This document shows positions 878 to 8,632 of a DNA stretch of 64,000 nucleotides, one piece after another (the first letter of the stretch is position 1; the number at the start of each line of letters is the position of its first letter). The translations under genes were made by a program, and so were the position numbers. Location of the stretch: assembly GCF_000750005.1 (NCBI RefSeq), contig NZ_JPYA01000162.1, forward strand, positions 1-64,000, given 5' to 3'. The stretch is from Geobacillus icigianus. Its GTDB lineage: Bacteria; Bacillota; Bacilli; Bacillales; Anoxybacillaceae. The notes under the pieces are model-generated. The model did no database searches and was not told where the DNA came from. It saw nothing but the letters and a program-made list of their open reading frames with translations.

Positions 878-1744
878 ATGAAAACAATCGGGTTTATCGG
901 ACTTGGTGTGATGGGGAAAAGCATGGCGCGCCACTTGCTAAAAGCAGGCTATCCCCTTCTCGTCTATACGCGAACGAAAGAAAAGGCAAACGATTTGCTG
1001 GCAGAGGGGGCGGCATGGAAGGAAACGGTCGCTGATTTGGCCCGGGAGGCGGATGTCGTGATGACGATGGTCGGCTATCCGCGTGATGTTGAGCAAGTGT
1101 ATTTCGGTGAGGCCGGCATTTTGGAAAACGCACGTCAGGGAACATACGTCATCGATATGACCACATCGACGCCGACGCTGGCGCAATCGATTTACGAAGC
1201 GGCGAAGCGAAAAGGCATTCATGCGTTGGACGCGCCGGTGTCCGGCGGCGACATCGGCGCGCGCGAAGGAACGTTGACGATTATGGTCGGCGGTGACGAA
1301 GACGTGTTTTTGGCGTGCAAGCCGATCCTTGAGCGGCTCGGAACTAACATCATTTTGCAAGGGAAAGCGGGAGCTGGCCAACACACGAAAATGTGCAACC
1401 AAATCGCCATTGCCACGAACATGATCGGGGTGTGCGAGGCGATCGCCTATGCCAAGCGGGCTGGTCTTGATCCATTCAAAGTGCTTGAAAGTATCGCTAA
1501 AGGGGCGGCCGGCAGCTGGTCGCTGAGCAACTTGGCGCCGCGCATGCTCGCTGGCGATTTTGCCCCCGGATTTTACGTGAAGCATTTCCTCAAAGATATG
1601 AACATTGCCCTTGAAGAAGCGGAGCGGATGAACTTGCCGCTGCCGGGCTTAGCGCTTGCGAAGCGGCTTTACGAGGAGCTGGCACAAGCCGGCGAGGAAA
1701 ACAGCGGCACGCAGGCGTTGTACAAACGGTACGCGTCAGAATGA
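878..1744 (+). CDS. 3-hydroxyisobutyrate dehydrogenase-like NAD(P)-dependent oxidoreductase
   Basis: Beta-hydroxyacid dehydrogenase of the 3-hydroxyisobutyrate/tartronate-semialdehyde reductase family, 288 residues. The N-terminal Rossmann motif IGLGVMG occupies residues 7-13, the substrate loop DAPVSGG lies near residue 119, and the catalytic Lys region GQHTKMCNQ is near residue 170. The start is the ATG at 878 because GGAGGGG sits at 862-868; longer in-frame starts have no such site. In valine catabolism such enzymes oxidise 3-hydroxyisobutyrate to methylmalonate semialdehyde. Here no other valine genes adjoin it and the partner genes handle acyl-CoA, so the exact hydroxyacid substrate is open. 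Confidence 0.85.
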   Translation: MKTIGFIGLGVMGKSMARHLLKAGYPLLVYTRTKEKANDLLAEGAAWKETVADLAREADVVMTMVGYPRDVEQVYFGEAGILENARQGTYVIDMTTSTPTLAQSIYEAAKRKGIHALDAPVSGGDIGAREGTLTIMVGGDEDVFLACKPILERLGTNIILQGKAGAGQHTKMCNQIAIATNMIGVCEAIAYAKRAGLDPFKVLESIAKGAAGSWSLSNLAPRMLAGDFAPGFYVKHFLKDMNIALEEAERMNLPLPGLALAKRLYEELAQAGEENSGTQALYKRYASE

Positions 1745-2108: not shown

Positions 2109-3320
2109 ATGGACTTTTCCTATTCGCCCAAAGTGAAAGAGTTGATCAAAAAATTAAGCGCTTTCATGGAAGAGTACATTTATCCGAACGAGAAGGTGTA
2201 TGAGGAGCAGCTGAACGCCCAAGAGTCGAGATGGGCCGGCGTGCCGCCGATCATCGAAGAATTGAAGGAAAAGGCGAAAAAAGAAGGGCTTTGGAATTTG
2301 TTTTTGCCAGACAGCGAATACGGCGCGGGATTAACGAATGTCGAGTACGCGCCGCTTTGCGAAATCATGGGTCGCTCGCTCATCGCCCCGGAAGTGTTCA
2401 ACTGCAATGCGCCCGATACCGGCAACATGGAAGTGCTCGTCCGCTACGGCACCGAGGAGCAAAAGAAAAAGTGGCTCATCCCGCTCTTGAACGGAGAAAT
2501 CCGCTCGTGCTTTTCGATGACGGAGCCGGATGTGGCGTCGAGCGATGCGACGAACATTCGCGCTTCGATCGTTCGCGATGGCGATGAGTATGTCATCACC
2601 GGACGGAAATGGTGGTCATCCGGGGCCGGCGACCCGCGCTGCAAAGTCGCCATCGTCATGGGAAAGACGAACCCCGATGCGCCAAAACATGAACAGCAGT
2701 CGATGATCATCGTTCCGCTTGATACGCCGGGCGTGAAAATCGAGCGGATGCTGCCGGTGTTCGGCTTTGACCATGCGCCGCACGGGCATGCGGAGATTAC
2801 GTATGACCATGTGCGCGTGCCGAAGGAAAACATCATTTGGGGCGAAGGAAAAGGGTTCGCCATCGCCCAAGGCCGGCTCGGTCCGGGGCGGATCCACCAT
2901 TGCATGCGCTTGATTGGGGCGGCGGAGCGGGCGCTTGAACTGATGTGCCGCCGCGTGCAGTCGCGGGTGGCGTTCGGCAAACCGCTCGCCGAGCACGGCG
3001 TCATCCGCGAGTGGATCGCCCAGTCGCGCATCGAGATCGAGCAGGCGCGCCTGTTGACGCTCAAGGCGGCGTACATGATGGATACGGTCGGCAATAAAGT
3101 GGCGCGCAAAGAAATTGCGATGATCAAAGTGGTCGCGCCCAATGTCGCGCTCAACGTCATCGACCGCGCCATTCAGGCGTTTGGCGCCGCCGGGGTGAGC
3201 AACGATTTTCCGCTTGCCGCCATGTGGGCGAACTCGCGCACGCTTCGTTTGGCTGACGGGCCGGACGAAGTGCACAAAGAGCAAGTGGCGAAGCTTGAAT
3301 TGCGGCAATACCAACCATAA
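2109..3320 (+). CDS. ACAD10/11-type acyl-CoA dehydrogenase
   Basis: FAD-dependent acyl-CoA dehydrogenase, 403 residues. The N-terminal helical domain is followed by the FAD/substrate beta domain ([14 protein letters not shown] near residue 137, KWWSSGAGD near 174) and a C-terminal helical domain with [11 protein letters not shown] near residue 260, AFGKPL, and LADGPDEVH near 382. The block from GRIHHCMR to DGPDEVH matches human ACAD10/ACAD11 as remembered rather than short-chain butyryl-CoA dehydrogenases. In ACAD11 this domain is fused to an APH kinase; here the kinase is a separate gene at 5811. The start at 2109 follows AAAGGAGGGGAGC. A longer in-frame extension to 1890 crosses the promoter and the repeat and is rejected. 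Confidence 0.93.
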
Positions 3321-3330
3321 GGGAGAGGAA

Positions 3331-3404
3331 GAGGAGCTTATGCATGTGCTGGATTTATTCAAAATCGGAGGAGCTTATGCATGTGCTGGATTTATTCAAA
3401 ATCG
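3331..3404 (+). repeat. Exact 37-bp tandem duplication spanning RBS and start codon
   Basis: The 37 bases at 3331-3367 are repeated without change at 3368-3404. Each copy carries GAGGAG, an ATG and the codons for the first residues of the downstream dehydrogenase. Because 37 is not a multiple of three, the upstream ATG (3340) opens a different frame that ends at 3450, while the downstream ATG (3377) is the true start. A ribosome using the first site makes a 36-residue out-of-frame peptide that overlaps the gene. Confidence 0.95.
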
Positions 3405-4159
3405 AAGGAAAAACCGCCATCGTGACGGGCGGTGGGCGCGGGCTCGGTGAGCAAATCGCCATCGGCCTCGCTGAAGCCGGAGCGAACGTCGTCGTCTGCT
3501 CGCGCAAGGTTGAGGCGTGCGAGCAGGTGAAAGAAAAGCTCGAACAGCTCGGCGTCCGTTCGCTCGCATTGCGGTGCGATGTGACGAATCCGGAGGACGT
3601 CAAACATGTTGTGGAAACGACCGTCAACGAGTTCGGCGGCATCGACATTTTAGTCAACAACAGCGGGGCGACGTGGGGGGCGCCGGTCGAGGAAATGCCG
3701 CTTGAGGCATGGCAGAAGGTGCTCAACGTCAACATCACCGGCACATTTTTGATGAGCCAGGCGGTCGGCAAGGTGATGATCGCCAAACAAACGGGCGGCG
3801 CCATTGTCAATATCGCGTCGGTCGCCGGTCTTGGCGGCACGCATCCGGACATTTTGAATACGATCGGCTACAACACGAGCAAAGGGGCGGTCATTACGTT
3901 TACGAAAGATTTGGCCGCCAAATGGGGAAAACACGGCATTCGCGTCAACGCGGTAGCGCCGGGCTTTTTCCCGACGAAAATGTCCCAAGTCGTCCTTCAG
4001 CATGTCGGCCAAAAAGTGCTCGAGCATACGCCGCTCGGCCGTTTCGGCGGCGACGATGACTTAAAAGGCGCGGTGCTGTTCTTGGCTTCTCCGGCTTCCG
4101 CGTTTGTCACCGGCGCGCTTCTTGTCGTTGATGGCGGCAGCCATGCTGCTGGAATGTAA
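3377..4159 (+). CDS. SDR family oxidoreductase (3-oxoacyl/3-hydroxyacyl dehydrogenase type)
   Basis: Classical SDR of 260 residues. TGGGRGLGEQ (near residue 16) is the NAD(P) motif, NNSG replaces the usual NNAG, NIASV carries the catalytic Ser, and YNTSKGA carries the catalytic Tyr and Lys. It ends in VVDGG. The start chosen is the second, in-frame ATG of the 37-bp duplication, preceded by its own GGAGG. It follows the ACAD-type dehydrogenase gene by 56 bp and precedes an acyl-CoA ligase remnant by 24 bp, so it is probably one operon with both. In the levulinate pathway of Pseudomonas an SDR (LvaD) occupies the equivalent place; that role here is only inferred. Confidence 0.9.
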   Translation: MHVLDLFKIEGKTAIVTGGGRGLGEQIAIGLAEAGANVVVCSRKVEACEQVKEKLEQLGVRSLALRCDVTNPEDVKHVVETTVNEFGGIDILVNNSGATWGAPVEEMPLEAWQKVLNVNITGTFLMSQAVGKVMIAKQTGGAIVNIASVAGLGGTHPDILNTIGYNTSKGAVITFTKDLAAKWGKHGIRVNAVAPGFFPTKMSQVVLQHVGQKVLEHTPLGRFGGDDDLKGAVLFLASPASAFVTGALLVVDGGSHAAGM

Positions 4160-4183
4160 TCCAAAATGGAAGGGGGAAAAATA

Positions 4184-5101
4184 ATGAGCGAAAAACGGGC
4201 GTTGTCTCTTTACCCGAAACATGTGTCGTTTCATATCGAGATTCCGAACAAAACGGTGTGCGAGGTGCTGCATGAACGGGCGGCGGAATTTGGCGCTCAG
4301 CCGGCGCTGACGTTTTACAGCCAAACGATCACTTACGCTGAGCTCGCCGCGGCGGTCAACCGCTTCGCTTCCAGCCTGCAAGCGCTCGGAGTGCAAAAAG
4401 GCGATCGGGTCGCGATCATGCTGCCAAACTGCCCGCAATACGTCATCGCTTACTACGGCATTTTGCAGGCGGGCGCCATCGTCACCCAAGTGAATCCGAT
4501 GCTCGTTGAGCGCGAGCTTTCGTACTTGCTCAATGATTCGGGAGCGGAGATGATCGTCATTTACGAGCCGCTTTATCCGCGTCTAGCTGCCGTGAGACAA
4601 GAGACGGCGGTCAAGCGGGCGGTCACTGTCCAGTTCGGGGCGCCGGCTTCTGTCCCGCTCGCTGAAGGCGATGTGACGTTTGAACAGTTTTTGGCCCAAG
4701 GGGATGGACAAGTGCGCCCGGTGCCGATCGAGCCGGCGCATGATATCGCTGTGTTGCAATACACAGGCGGAACGACAGGGCGCTCGAAAGGGGCGATGCT
4801 CACCCACCGCAACATTTTCGCTAACGTCTTGCAGTGCGCCGAATTTTTCAAAGGAACGTTTGAATTTGGAAAAGAGCGGTATTTAACTGTCATTCCGTTG
4901 TTCCACGTATTCGCGATGACGTCCGGCATGAACTTGGCGATTTACCAAGGGGCGGAAAACATTTTGTTGCCGCGCTTCGAGCTGAAAGAAGTGCTCGAGA
5001 CGATCCGCGACAAGCAGCCGACCGTGTTCCCCGGCGTGCCGACGATGTACGTCGCCATCACAAACACCCCCGGCAAGACGGGCCATTTTATGGTACAATA
5101 G
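4184..5101 (+). pseudogene. Acyl-CoA synthetase, truncated after about 300 residues
   Basis: N-terminal part of an AMP-forming long-chain-type acyl-CoA ligase. The frame contains the P-loop motif YTGGTTGRSKGA (near residue 193) and FPGVPTMY close to its end, then stops after NTPGKTGHFMVQ. Full members are 500-560 residues and continue with the adenylate-binding YGxTE motif, the hinge and the C-terminal lid with the catalytic Lys; all of these are missing. The last codons overlap the extended -10 promoter of the next gene, which points to a deletion that joined the ligase to the regulator region. The start at 4184 follows GGAAGGGGG. It is almost certainly not an active ligase. Confidence 0.85.
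5091..5099 (+). promoter_or_regulatory. Extended -10 promoter of the tetR-type gene
   Basis: TGGTACAAT (5091-5099) is an extended -10 element preceded by TTTTA. No good -35 is seen. It lies inside the last codons of the truncated ligase, whose stop codon is formed from the -10 (TAG at 5099-5101). Confidence 0.55.
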
Positions 5102-5137
5102 CTGGCAGTGATGACGCAGGGCAAGAGGTGGGAGAAC

Positions 5138-5707
5138 ATGAGGGAAAAGATTATCGCTGCCAGCATTGAACTGTTTGAGCAAAACGGGTTCAGCGAAACG
5201 TCGATTCAAGATATTGTCGACGCGCTTGGGGTAACGAAAGGGACGTTTTACTATTATTTCAAAAGCAAAGAAGAGCTGCTGATGGATATTCATCTTCGCT
5301 ACATTGAAGGGCTGCTTCGCGAACAGCAGCGCATTATCAATGACGGGCGGCGATCGGTGCGGGAAAAGCTGTATGCCATTGTGTATATGCTTATTCACAA
5401 CGTTGAGCGCCAAGGGCGGCAAGCGCGCATTTTTTTCCGCGAAATGAAACATTTGAACGAGGAGCATTTGCAAAAAGTGAAGGAAAAGCGCGATTTGTTT
5501 CGCTATCAGCTGCAGGCGTTAATTGAGGATGGAATGAAAAGCGGCGAACTGCGCCGCGATTTGTCGCCATCGATTGCCGCGCTCACGGTGCTCGGGGCGG
5601 CCAATTGGAGTTACCATTGGTTTCGCCCGGACGGCGGGCTGACTGATGCGGAAGTGGCCAAACAGATGATCACCATTTTGATCGATGGGATGGGGCCGGC
5701 GTCTTAA
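5138..5707 (+). CDS. TetR family transcriptional regulator
   Basis: Repressor of 189 residues. Residues 1-47 form the TetR DNA-binding domain, with SIQDIVDALGVTKGTFYYYF as the helix-turn-helix and first part of the next helix, followed by KSKEELL. The C-terminal helical domain would bind the effector. It sits between the ligase remnant and the APH kinase, all on the same strand, so control of acyl-CoA genes by an acyl-CoA effector is likely but not shown. The sequence does not match B. subtilis FadR as remembered. The start at 5138 follows GAGGTGGGAG. Candidate operators are the palindromes at 2076-2091 and 5767-5780. Confidence 0.9.
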   Translation: MREKIIAASIELFEQNGFSETSIQDIVDALGVTKGTFYYYFKSKEELLMDIHLRYIEGLLREQQRIINDGRRSVREKLYAIVYMLIHNVERQGRQARIFFREMKHLNEEHLQKVKEKRDLFRYQLQALIEDGMKSGELRRDLSPSIAALTVLGAANWSYHWFRPDGGLTDAEVAKQMITILIDGMGPAS

Positions 5708-5766
5708 CAAGCACTATGCGTCCGCCATAGAAGTCAAGGTCGCCGTTCATGTCGCTCGTTTGTCGA

Positions 5767-5780
5767 TGTTTGACCAAACA
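5767..5780. promoter_or_regulatory. Palindromic operator candidate upstream of the APH kinase gene
   Basis: TGTTTGACCAAACA has perfect 6-bp arms (TGTTTG/CAAACA) around a 2-bp centre, 31 bp upstream of the kinase start. It differs in sequence from the palindrome at 2076-2091, so the two need not bind the same regulator. Confidence 0.4.
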
Positions 5781-5810
5781 AAACGCGCTCGCCAAAAGGG
5801 GGAGAGGAAA

Positions 5811-6869
5811 ATGAGCGCCATTATTCCGGTGCGCAAAGGGGAAGAATTGCCGGTTGGAAAATTGGCCGCGTTTTTGCGCTCAGTGCTGCCGGACATGCCG
5901 GATGGGGAGCTGGAGATTCGGCAATTTTCCGCCGGCCGCTCGAATTTGACGTATTTGCTCCGCTGCGGGGAGTGGGAGGCGGTGCTGCGCCGGCCGCCGC
6001 TTGGCCCGGTGCCGCCGAAAGCTCATGATATGAAGCGGGAGAGCACATGGCTTGCCGAAATCCATCCGCTCTTTCCGCTGGCGCCGAAGCCGCTGTATTT
6101 TTGTGACGATGAGTCGATCATCGGCAGCCCCTTTTTCGTGATGGAGCGGCGTGATGGCGTTGTCATTGACGACGATTTTCCGGACGGCGTTGTGCCGACA
6201 GAAGACGTCTGCCGCGGCATTTCCGAAACGATGGTCGAGACGTTAGTTCGCATCCATCAAATCGATTATACGAAAACGCGATTGGTGCACATGGTCAAGC
6301 CGGAAGGATTTATGGAGCGGCAAGTGCACGGATGGATTCAGCGGTACGAGCGGGCGAAAACCGACGATGTTCCAGCGGCTGAAGCGCTGACGAAGTGGCT
6401 CGCTTCCCACATTCCGCCGCAGCGGGAGGCGACGGTTATTCATTACGATTTTAAGCTGAACAATGCTATGTTTGCGAAAGATGATATCACTAACATGGTC
6501 GGCTTGTTTGACTGGGAAATGTCGACCGTCGGCGATCCGCTGGCCGATTTGGCGGTGGCGATGAGCTATTGGATTGAAGAGGATGATCGGCCGCTGGTGA
6601 AAAATGGATTTGGTCGCGCACCGGCCACCGTCCGGCCTGGATTTTACACGCGCGAACAGTTTATTGACGCGTACGCGAGAAAAAGCGGCCGCGATGTGTC
6701 CGACGTGCACGTGTATTTGACGTTCGCCTACTTTAAATTAGCGGTCATTTGCCAGCAAATTTATTATCGTTATCGCCGCGGGCAGACGAACGATGAGCGG
6801 TTTCGCCATTTCGGCCAGTTTGTCGAAGCGCTTATCGAGCATGCATGGCAGCTGGCGACGGGACGGTGA
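5811..6869 (+). CDS. APH-type phosphotransferase resembling the ACAD11 kinase domain
   Basis: Protein-kinase-like phosphotransferase of 352 residues. SAGRSNLTY (near residue 43) fits the nucleotide loop, VLRRPPLGPVPPKAHDM follows as in ACAD11, HYDFKLNN (from 211) is the catalytic loop with the HxD Asp, and DWE (from 234) is the metal-binding motif. Proteins of this group next to acyl-CoA dehydrogenases include LvaA of the P. putida levulinate pathway and the N-terminal half of mammalian ACAD10/11, which phosphorylate the hydroxyl of 4-hydroxyacyl-CoA. The dehydrogenase partner is at 2109. It is unlikely to be an antibiotic kinase. The start at 5811 follows GGGGGAGAGG. Confidence 0.88.
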   Translation: MSAIIPVRKGEELPVGKLAAFLRSVLPDMPDGELEIRQFSAGRSNLTYLLRCGEWEAVLRRPPLGPVPPKAHDMKRESTWLAEIHPLFPLAPKPLYFCDDESIIGSPFFVMERRDGVVIDDDFPDGVVPTEDVCRGISETMVETLVRIHQIDYTKTRLVHMVKPEGFMERQVHGWIQRYERAKTDDVPAAEALTKWLASHIPPQREATVIHYDFKLNNAMFAKDDITNMVGLFDWEMSTVGDPLADLAVAMSYWIEEDDRPLVKNGFGRAPATVRPGFYTREQFIDAYARKSGRDVSDVHVYLTFAYFKLAVICQQIYYRYRRGQTNDERFRHFGQFVEALIEHAWQLATGR

Positions 6870-6878
6870 GGCAGCGTG

Positions 6879-7661
6879 ATGACGAACGTGCATGTCGTGC
6901 TGCGCAAGGAAGACATTGATGAGACGGCGCTCGCTGATGGGAAAGTTGCTGTTGTGTTTGACATTTTGCTTGCCACCTCATCGATTGCCGCCGCGCTTTC
7001 GGCCGGCGCTCGTTCGGTGATCCCGGTCCGCGACGCCGAGGAGGCGAAGGCGGTCGCGATTCACTTGCCCGAGAAAAGTTATGAGCTCGTCGGTGAACGG
7101 GAGGGACGGACGATCGATGGCTTCCATCCTCCGGCGCCGCTGTTTTTGCAAACGATCTGTCCGGGAAAAACGGTCGTGTTGTCGACGACCAACGGCACGG
7201 TGGCGGTTCATAAAGCGCAGTCGGCGAGCGCGGTATACACGGCGAGTTTGCTGAACAGCCCGGCGGTCAGCGAGCATGTTTGCCGATGGCATCGCGACAA
7301 AACGATGATCGCCATCTGCTCCGGCTCGTCGGGTCGTTTTTGCCTCGAAGACTTTTACGGCGCCGGCTATTTCGTGCATTGCCTCGTCGAGCAAGGGATC
7401 GATGCGGCCAAGCTGTCCGACAGCGCGATGGCCGCATGGCTCTTTTACCGGCAATATTCGGGGGAAGAAAGGGCGAAAGAAGTATTGTTCGCCGCGCGCG
7501 TCGGCCGCTGGATGGCGGCGTACGGTTTGGAATCAGAAGTGGATTACATTAACCGGCACGGGGCGCTTTCTTCCGTTCCGAAACTTGAACGAGGATCGTT
7601 CGGTTTGGAGCTGCGCGATATCGCGCCAACAAGATTCATGAAAGAGGGGAGATCGTCATGA
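6879..7661 (+). CDS. ComB-like 2-phosphosulfolactate phosphatase family protein
   Basis: Member of the ComB family, 260 residues, recognised by VVFDILLATSSIAAAL near the start, GERxGxxIDGFHPPAPL, LSTTNGT and ICSGSSGRFCLEDFYGAG. The family hydrolyses 2-phosphosulfolactate to sulfolactate with Mg2+, in coenzyme M synthesis in archaea and in sulfolactate metabolism in some bacilli. No ComA (phosphosulfolactate synthase) gene is near, so the substrate here may differ. ATG 6879 is preferred over GTG 6876 because GGTGAGG ends 7 bases upstream. It begins 9 bases after the kinase gene and overlaps the next gene by 4 bases, so the three are probably cotranscribed. Confidence 0.85.
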   Translation: MTNVHVVLRKEDIDETALADGKVAVVFDILLATSSIAAALSAGARSVIPVRDAEEAKAVAIHLPEKSYELVGEREGRTIDGFHPPAPLFLQTICPGKTVVLSTTNGTVAVHKAQSASAVYTASLLNSPAVSEHVCRWHRDKTMIAICSGSSGRFCLEDFYGAGYFVHCLVEQGIDAAKLSDSAMAAWLFYRQYSGEERAKEVLFAARVGRWMAAYGLESEVDYINRHGALSSVPKLERGSFGLELRDIAPTRFMKEGRSS

Positions 7662-8632
7662 AATTTGTCCAATTCGTTGAATACGGTGGGCCCGATGTCT
7701 TGCGTGTTTGCGAAGGAGAACGCCCGAAGCCCACAGGTCGGCAAGTATTGATCGAAGCCGAAGCGATCGGTGTCAACTATGCCGATACAGCCCGGCGGGA
7801 AGGGCGCTACGTGGTGCCGACGCCGCTTCCGTTCATACCGGGGACGGAGGTGGCCGGCGTTGTTTGCGAGGTTGGTCCGGAGGTGCAAACGGTCCGTCCA
7901 GGGCAGCGCGTCGTCGCGTTGATTGAGTCGGGGGGCTACGCCGAGTGTGTCGCTGTTGACGAGCGGGCGGTCGTGCCGCTTCCGGACGGCATGGATGCCC
8001 GGCAGGCGGCGGCTTTGCCGGTGCAAGGGCTGAGCGCCTACCATATTCTCAAAACGATGGGCCGCTTAGAGGAAGGAGAAACCGTGCTCGTTCACGCCGC
8101 TGCCGGCGGCGTTGGAACGATCGCCGTCCAGCTGGCGAAACGGTTCGGCGCCAAAACGGTCATCGCCACGGCGAGTACGGAGGAAAAACGGGCGCTCGCC
8201 CAACAGCTTGGCGCTGATGTTGCCATTGATTATACAAAAGACAGCTGGGCCGCGGACGTGATGGAGGCGACCGGTGGCCGCGGCATCGATGTCGCCTTGG
8301 AAATGGCGGGCGGCGACGTCTTTCATCAGACGCTCGATTGCCTTGCTCCGTTCGGCCGTCTTGTCGTCTACGGGGCGGCGAGCGGGGAGATGACGCGTCT
8401 CAATCCGGTTCGTCTCATGGCGAAAAACTGGTCCGTCATCGGTTTCTTTTTGCCGCAAATCATGCGAAAGCGGGCGCTGTACGAACAAAGTTTGCGCGAA
8501 TTGCTTTCATGGGTGCAAGACGGGAGCTTGCAGCTGACGATCGGCGGCGTCTACCCGCTTGAGCAGGCGCCGATGGTACATAAACTTCTTCAAGAGCGGA
8601 AAACGCACGGCAAGCTGCTGCTTGTGCCATAA
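7658..8632 (+). CDS. Zinc-independent quinone oxidoreductase (MDR family)
   Basis: NADPH-dependent medium-chain reductase of 324 residues, similar to QorA/zeta-crystallin. GVNYADTARREG lies near residue 44, PFIPGTEVAG near 64, and the NADPH Rossmann motif AAAGGVGTIAVQLAK near 150. No zinc-binding Cys/His set is visible. Such enzymes reduce quinones or enoyl substrates. It overlaps the ComB-like gene by 4 bases (ATGA), which indicates translational coupling, and is the last gene of the cluster. A 10-bp hairpin follows at 8643. Confidence 0.9.
   Translation: MKFVQFVEYGGPDVLRVCEGERPKPTGRQVLIEAEAIGVNYADTARREGRYVVPTPLPFIPGTEVAGVVCEVGPEVQTVRPGQRVVALIESGGYAECVAVDERAVVPLPDGMDARQAAALPVQGLSAYHILKTMGRLEEGETVLVHAAAGGVGTIAVQLAKRFGAKTVIATASTEEKRALAQQLGADVAIDYTKDSWAADVMEATGGRGIDVALEMAGGDVFHQTLDCLAPFGRLVVYGAASGEMTRLNPVRLMAKNWSVIGFFLPQIMRKRALYEQSLRELLSWVQDGSLQLTIGGVYPLEQAPMVHKLLQERKTHGKLLLVP

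Follow-up and report, generated by a model that had tools for sequence, protein, structure and literature searches.

The 64,000-nucleotide stretch of Geobacillus icigianus DNA analyzed here (the window) starts with the first base of contig NZ_JPYA01000162.1, part of an assembly of 206 contigs that is rated 100% complete. Close to its start lies a gene cluster that includes an acyl-CoA dehydrogenase (ACAD), a kinase of the phosphotransferase family PF01636 and, directly 3′ of the kinase gene, a phosphatase-like protein of family PF04029. The original prediction, made from the sequence letters, had taken the dehydrogenase and the kinase for unfused counterparts of the mammalian ACAD10/11 enzymes and had proposed that they degrade 4-hydroxy acids. 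Its coordinates and quoted motifs for both genes are correct on re-reading the sequence; its account of the cluster overlooked the PF04029 gene, which is the most unusual part.

Compared with solved structures, the dehydrogenase scores highest against 4hr3 (504 bits), human ACAD11 (2wbi, 503 bits) and mouse ACAD11 (8v3u, 496 bits). The next-best structure, the short-chain ACAD 2vig, reaches 144 bits, which leaves ACAD11 a lead of ≈350 bits. In the alignment, Asp383 is the catalytic aspartate that replaces glutamate, and both the HCMR motif (residues 264–267) and the upstream Arg256 (R626 in mouse) are present. These are the residues named for the ACAD11 dehydrogenase, the aspartate and HCMR being called specific to ACAD10/11 (PMC12440821; this source, PMC11342911 and PMC6692424 are cited throughout from excerpts). 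A 25-residue segment and the DWEMST motif are also present, aligned on functional residues of ACAD11. Chain 8v3v has Asn at the residue aligned with Asp383, and chain 8v3u has Ala at the one aligned with Asp213 of the kinase, which fits the two mutants of PMC12440821. A FastTree phylogeny of 69 sequences, with SH-like supports and rooted on a partial sequence of human short-chain ACAD (SCAD), places the dehydrogenase in a 40-member clade with human ACAD11, mouse ACAD11 and 4hr3 (support 0.851), surrounded by three wider clades with supports of 0.973 to 1.0. The 11 other ACAD homologues of the same genome and human SCAD all fall outside the ACAD10/11 clade. Structure scores, residues and tree bear out the ACAD10/11 signature claimed for this gene, and the dehydrogenase lies inside the clade whose exterior the original prediction had named as the refuting position. 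At the level of sequence comparison, its membership of the ACAD10/11 (LvaC) group is confirmed.

The kinase has the APH fold and scores 498 bits against 9o56, 157 bits against mouse ACAD11 (8v3v) and 136 bits against 3dxp. E-values near 1e−148 against structures rule out chance motif similarity for the dehydrogenase and the kinase. In the kinase, Asp213, Asn218 and Arg170 match D220, N225 and R176 of mouse ACAD11, where D220 is the catalytic aspartate, N225 is likewise named and R176 lies close to CoA (PMC12440821). The Arg-Glu pair of the αC helix is conserved as well (residues 76–77); R86 of the same paper could not be placed by number in the window kinase, and we do not claim the pair as its equivalent. 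The kinase signature that had been matched to ACAD10/11 thus agrees with the scores and the aligned residues, and the predicted activity, that of an LvaA/ACAD11-type 4-hydroxyacyl-CoA kinase, is well supported by these residues. Kinase and dehydrogenase are separate proteins in every bacterial locus examined. Together they would form a core module of a known kind, an assignment that the comparisons support well.

To place this module in context, we compared 101 Bacillales loci: 14 from the genus (the window included), 12 from the family and 75 from other families, a non-random set with mostly one locus per genus plus paralogues, in which one protein of each neighboring gene group was checked against Pfam. 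The genus order, short-chain dehydrogenase (SDR) 1, 3-hydroxyisobutyrate-dehydrogenase-like (HIBDH-like) protein, ACAD, SDR2, ligase, TetR, kinase, PF04029 and quinone oxidoreductase (Table 1), is conserved in the 13 relatives except G005, which is without SDR2 and ligase and has the PF04029 and quinone oxidoreductase genes cut. On the kinase strand and within 10 kb, an ACAD gene occurs in 14/14 genus, 12/12 family and 63/75 other-family loci, SDR2 in 13/14, 12/12 and 59/75, and PF04029 in 14/14, 12/12 and 43/75. The 75 other-family loci also hold ligase (52), enoyl-CoA hydratase (39), quinone oxidoreductase (39), 3-hydroxyacyl-CoA dehydrogenase (37), thioesterase (37) and thiolase (17) genes, and some expanded clusters there carry branched-chain-amino-acid-type ABC transporter genes. 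The added hydratase, 3-hydroxyacyl-CoA dehydrogenase, thioesterase and thiolase are what a route feeding β-oxidation would need. Since kinase and dehydrogenase occur together in most of the Bacillales loci compared, often within β-oxidation clusters, 4-hydroxyacyl-CoA degradation is the best reading of the module. Elsewhere in the phylum the kinase was found in 6 of 299 genomes, including the window genome and one of the same order; in three of these genomes, all of one family, the dehydrogenase adjoins the kinase and neither partner is recognized by our models, and a fourth non-order genome (G443) has PF04029.

The PF04029 protein has the ComB fold and is annotated as 2-phosphosulfolactate phosphatase in Geobacillus relatives. 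We aligned 62 proteins from kinase clusters with 20 others (numbering from the GTG at 6876), and structure prediction covered the window protein. Asp29, Asn106 and Asp159 are conserved in 82/82. Position 32 is Leu, Phe or Met in all 62 cluster proteins (the L-type), and Arg (13) or Ser (7) in the other 20; Cys225, present in all 20, is Ile, Val, Ala or Leu in at least 60 of the 62. In the window protein, Leu32 and Ile225 replace the arginine (Asp-x-x-Arg-Ala) and the cysteine of the ComB-family structures 1vr0, 2yyv and 2z0j, its gene neighbors a kinase gene rather than comA, and ComA (PF02679) has no match across the contigs of the window genome. Given the loss of both residues and the lack of ComA, the phosphosulfolactate phosphatase name is probably wrong, which implies that many Bacillales proteins carrying it are misnamed. 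A third PF04029 group (L236–L242) carries the sequence Asp-Val-Leu-Ser-Phe-Ser-Ser where the Arg motif would stand, and none of its seven genes is near a kinase gene or comA.

The linkage of this protein to the kinase extends across the order. Among 249 genomes searched, the kinase (E ≤ 1e−50) occurs at 135 places in 114 genomes and PF04029 at 138 places in 117; ComA matches above the cut-off number 41. Within 300 bp of the kinase lie 83 of the 138 PF04029 genes and within 15 kb 92, a fraction that rises to 90 of 101 for high-scoring genes (at least 145 bits). Counted the other way, PF04029 lies no more than 15 kb from the kinase at 91 of the 135 kinase places, made up of 82 of the 105 with the best scores and 9 of the remaining 30. 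The Fisher p-values of 6e−39 and 2e−47 for this linkage are descriptive only, genome relatedness being uncorrected. At 40 of the 43 other-family loci that carry PF04029, it lies within 300 bp of the kinase. Nine of the 11 kinase-distant high-scoring genes were inspected, from eight genomes (G258 and G166 left out). Four of them adjoin same-strand pathway genes: enoyl-CoA hydratase at L268 and L269; thioesterase, thiolase, SDR2 and ACAD at L270; and ACAD and thiolase at L272. Among the rest, L267 has ligase genes on the opposite strand 2 kb away, L271 stands alone, L264 is broken, and L265 and L266 (both in G255) are of the Arg type. At L263, from another order of the class, PF04029 lies upstream of the kinase and the two genes overlap by 4 bp. 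Where the L-type gene occupies other positions, it still accompanies the pathway (L071, L086, L263 and L272). Mere inheritance of one operon as the source of the linkage is weakened by these other gene positions and by paralogous kinases (L132–L135). PF04029 stands out by its closeness to the kinase and by the rarity of the L-type elsewhere, and its linkage to pathway and kinase alike is strong. The link did not turn up in the papers searched; we regard PF04029 as a new partner of the kinase, with a role that we can only propose. Matches to the window protein also occur in five plasmid records, all from outside the Bacillota.

Table 1. Genes of the cluster at the start of the window
Feature	Position	Strand	Details
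SDR1, short-chain dehydrogenase, 5′ end lost at contig start	1..748	+	PF13561; opens the cluster in 13 genus relatives
HIBDH-like NAD(P)-binding oxidoreductase	878..1744	+	PF03446/PF14833
ACAD10/11 (LvaC)-type acyl-CoA dehydrogenase	2109..3320	+	ATG 2109, stop ends 3320; Asp383, HCMR 264–267, Arg256
SDR2, short-chain dehydrogenase, NF006070 (PRK08213) subfamily	3377..4159	+	412.8 bits, cut-off 279
AMP-binding acyl-CoA ligase, truncated	4184..5101	+	305 aa versus 539 aa in relatives
TetR-type regulator	5138..5707	+	likely start 5138 after AGAGGTGG (our reading); ORF from 5108
LvaA/ACAD11-type phosphotransferase (PF01636) kinase	5811..6869	+	ATG 5811, stop ends 6869; Asp213, Asn218, Arg170, Asp234
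PF04029 (ComB-fold) phosphatase-like protein, L-type	6876..7661	+	ORF 6 bp past kinase stop; GTG 6876, ATG 6879
Quinone-oxidoreductase-like medium-chain dehydrogenase/reductase (MDR)	7658..8632	+	4-bp overlap with PF04029 gene; frequent cluster member

At many loci outside the Bacillales, a different phosphatase fold neighbors the kinase. Six plasmid regions were read in all. A gene of the histidine-phosphatase family PF00300 comes next after the kinase gene, or next but one, in those of Deinococcus, Azospirillum and Pseudoalteromonas; in those of Cupriavidus, Rhodococcus DMU1 and Cytobacillus spongiae no PF00300 gene follows the kinase. A scan of genome contigs, a sample with some short flanks, gave at least 80 kinase loci, 78 of them with a kinase ORF. 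Among the matches listed, a histidine-phosphatase subfamily gene lies on the kinase strand within 3 kb in 45 of the 78, one further gene is 3.8 kb off, and none was found in 32; Pseudomonas stands in 18 of the 80 record titles, so that these loci are not independent. Our PF04029 model matched in none of the 80 listed loci, and the histidine phosphatase gave one weak 38-bit match in the 101 Bacillales loci. In an alignment of 50 of these histidine phosphatases (three from plasmids and 47 matches), the second catalytic histidine is Ser in all 50, and the first is retained in each of the 49 sequences whose alignment extends that far. Thr/Ser-Ser-Gly-Gly occupies the second-histidine site in 114 of 115 full-length homologues, and the phosphoserine phosphatase 4ij5 has His at this position, which we take to be part of the catalytic site of the superfamily. 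In the papers searched, a histidine phosphatase was not found together with ACAD10, a search that did not itself address the changed second histidine. Adjacency of a histidine phosphatase gene to an lvaA homologue in one Pseudomonas strain is already in print (PMC6692424).

From the homology, conserved residues and conserved linkage we infer the reactions, their substrate and a role for the PF04029 protein. The kinase would phosphorylate the 4-hydroxyl of a 4-hydroxyacyl-CoA, and the ACAD10/11-type dehydrogenase would remove the phosphate to give a 2-enoyl-CoA, partly hydrated to the 3-hydroxyacyl-CoA, which ordinary β-oxidation enzymes would finish. CoA activation, lost with the C terminus of the ligase, would presumably fall to a ligase encoded elsewhere in the genome. 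The PF04029 protein would dephosphorylate a phospho-intermediate that accumulates, or a free-acid by-product, acting as a brake or in clean-up. We think it probable that the system as a whole brings 4-hydroxy acids into β-oxidation in this way, with the PF04029 protein as a third component and not a phosphosulfolactate phosphatase.

Several observations weigh against this interpretation. The papers searched yielded no experimentally tested Bacillales member. The tree tells against a simple pairing, since the kinase-adjacent dehydrogenase of Rhodococcus DMU1 (L144) branches outside the entire ACAD10/11 group and its Cupriavidus counterpart (L143) on the margin of that group. At 32 of the 75 other-family loci no PF04029 gene was seen within 10 kb of the kinase, so the protein is not essential; its frequency there is also close to those of thioesterase and quinone oxidoreductase (43 versus 37 and 39), so the whole cluster accounts for part of the linkage. 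With the ligase broken in the window and in G002 and absent in G005, the pathway may be decaying. Finally, the negligible phosphatase activity reported for the HAD domain of ACAD10 (PMC11342911) raises the possibility that the partner does not function as a phosphatase.

Possible, if doubtful, is that the PF04029 protein is instead a noncatalytic subunit that binds and tunes the kinase, filling the slot of LvaB in Pseudomonas putida or of the HAD domain in ACAD10. Two family residues are lost in the L-type group, and the histidine-phosphatase partner of other lineages has likewise exchanged its second catalytic histidine. The ACAD10 HAD domain restrains its kinase despite that negligible activity (PMC11342911); LvaB came down with LvaA in a pull-down and cells need it to grow on levulinate, and the lva-like cluster of P. 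citronellolis LA18T contains a histidine phosphatase gene and no lvaB (PMC6692424). That cluster resembles ours in having a kinase with a phosphatase-fold neighbor and no LvaB, and differs in that the fold is that of a histidine phosphatase rather than ComB; its authors suggested, untested, that the enzyme removes phosphate from 4-phosphovaleryl-CoA (PMC6692424). Against a noncatalytic role, the ComB-fold Asp29, Thr-Asn-Gly and Glu-Asp are kept in 62/62 cluster proteins, beyond what a dead enzyme would need. The window proteins share with ACAD11 and ACAD10 both domain types, both catalytic aspartates, HCMR and the phosphate-facing arginine, but as two separate proteins, and ACAD10 too carries a phosphatase-fold domain, which is HAD, whereas the partner in the window is ComB-like with its core residues kept. 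Three unrelated phosphatase folds, ComB, histidine phosphatase and the ACAD10 HAD, accompany the kinase. We tentatively raise the idea, itself doubtful, that 4-hydroxyacyl-CoA kinases are commonly paired with a phosphatase-derived partner that limits phospho-acyl-CoA, unrelated folds having been recruited at least three times (the ComB-fold L-type in Bacillales; the histidine phosphatase of Pseudomonadota, Actinomycetota and others, which has Ser for its second His; and the fused HAD of ACAD10 with an incomplete DxD); such partners would be mainly sensors or brakes of the kinase, their old site binding the intermediate. The mammalian enzymes of 4-hydroxy acid breakdown were reported in 2024–2025 (PMC11342911, PMC12440821). 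Bacterial kinases with unrelated phosphatase folds, whose active sites are altered in both kinds, offer a comparative handle on the role of the ACAD10 HAD domain, and separate, here thermophilic, proteins should purify easily.

The kinase and dehydrogenase might also apply the same phosphorylation–elimination chemistry to a different hydroxyacyl-CoA, such as one with a branched chain or of ring origin. The branched-chain-type transporter genes and thiolase of some expanded clusters would fit, as would the six kinase homologues of one genome of the order, G202 (L119–L121, L135 and L136), which suggest several hydroxyacyl-CoA substrates there. We consider this unlikely, given that mouse 3T3L1 cells formed phospho-acyl-CoA from 4-hydroxyhexanoate and not from 5- or 6-hydroxyhexanoate (PMC11342911) and that the residues named for contact with hydroxyl and CoA are conserved in the window proteins.

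A levulinate pathway of the lva type, in which a ligase, reduction of levulinyl-CoA by an SDR, the kinase and the dehydrogenase would act in turn, is possible and not favored; we rate it as rather improbable. The original prediction had found all lva enzyme types in the cluster. Kinase, dehydrogenase, SDR and ligase remnant are indeed there, the first two as separate proteins as in LvaA and LvaC of P. putida (PMC6692424), and an SDR ≈38–39% identical to SDR2 lies 3′ of the kinase in many Pseudomonas loci. The regulator, however, is of the TetR type rather than a sigma-54 regulator like LvaR, PF04029 is the partner, and no transporter gene lies within the window cluster. No LvaB-like small protein is seen beside the kinase, as the original prediction had noted: the gaps of 104 bp to TetR and 6 bp to the PF04029 ORF leave no room, and the rest of the genome was not searched for LvaB. 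SDR2 comes from a broad subfamily, and larger versions of the cluster hold β-oxidation sets. With Lva features taken by description and not by sequence, the likeness of SDR and ligase is at family level; together with the regulator and the lack of LvaB beside the kinase, this makes the match to the lva operon a looser one. Clade, active-site residues and neighborhood support the proposed 4-hydroxyacyl-CoA degradation well, and nothing points to levulinate in particular. Paralogous kinases (42–46% identical) with a paralogous dehydrogenase (44–50%) occur at L133–L135, L078, L129 and L131, where a divergent group c23 gene, whose representative is a sigma-54 activator, makes the layout nearer to lva than that of the window; at L133–L135 a PF04029 gene lies 3′ of the paralogous kinase.

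It is very improbable that the PF04029 protein travels along without a link to the pathway or that it genuinely acts on phosphosulfolactate, as its family name and fold and the presence of ComA in 16 of the 97 genomes with PF04029 of at least 150 bits (G255 left out) might suggest, because the 13 PF04029 genes within 220 bp of comA are never near the kinase (the eleven sampled are all of the Arg type), the window genome has no ComA match and the L-type follows the pathway from position to position.

The ligase remnant noted in the original prediction is real. Relative to the 12 of 13 genus relatives whose ligase region aligns, ≈765 bp are gone between 5073 and 5081, and the DNA immediately 5′ of the TetR gene is retained. 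Eleven of the 13 retain an intact ligase frame of at least 539 codons; that of G002 is broken, and G005 gives no ligase match. Truncation by a contig end is ruled out, as the site lies inside the contig and relatives match on both sides. The same genome has other ligase homologues, the best a 570-codon frame with 53–59% identity (C104), and loss of LvaE did not abolish growth of P. putida on levulinate (PMC6692424). Window positions 5081–5999, mostly TetR, are ≈81% identical to G007, compared with 97% for the DNA before and 90% for that after, a drop that may point to recombination close to the ligase deletion. Some strains show decay of the cluster, as in G005 (L050), where SDR2 and ligase are lost upstream of the kinase and the PF04029 gene is cut near the end of the quinone-oxidoreductase gene. 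At L076, in the family member G030, the kinase is apparently broken by a stop and a frame change, and its neighbors match at full length.

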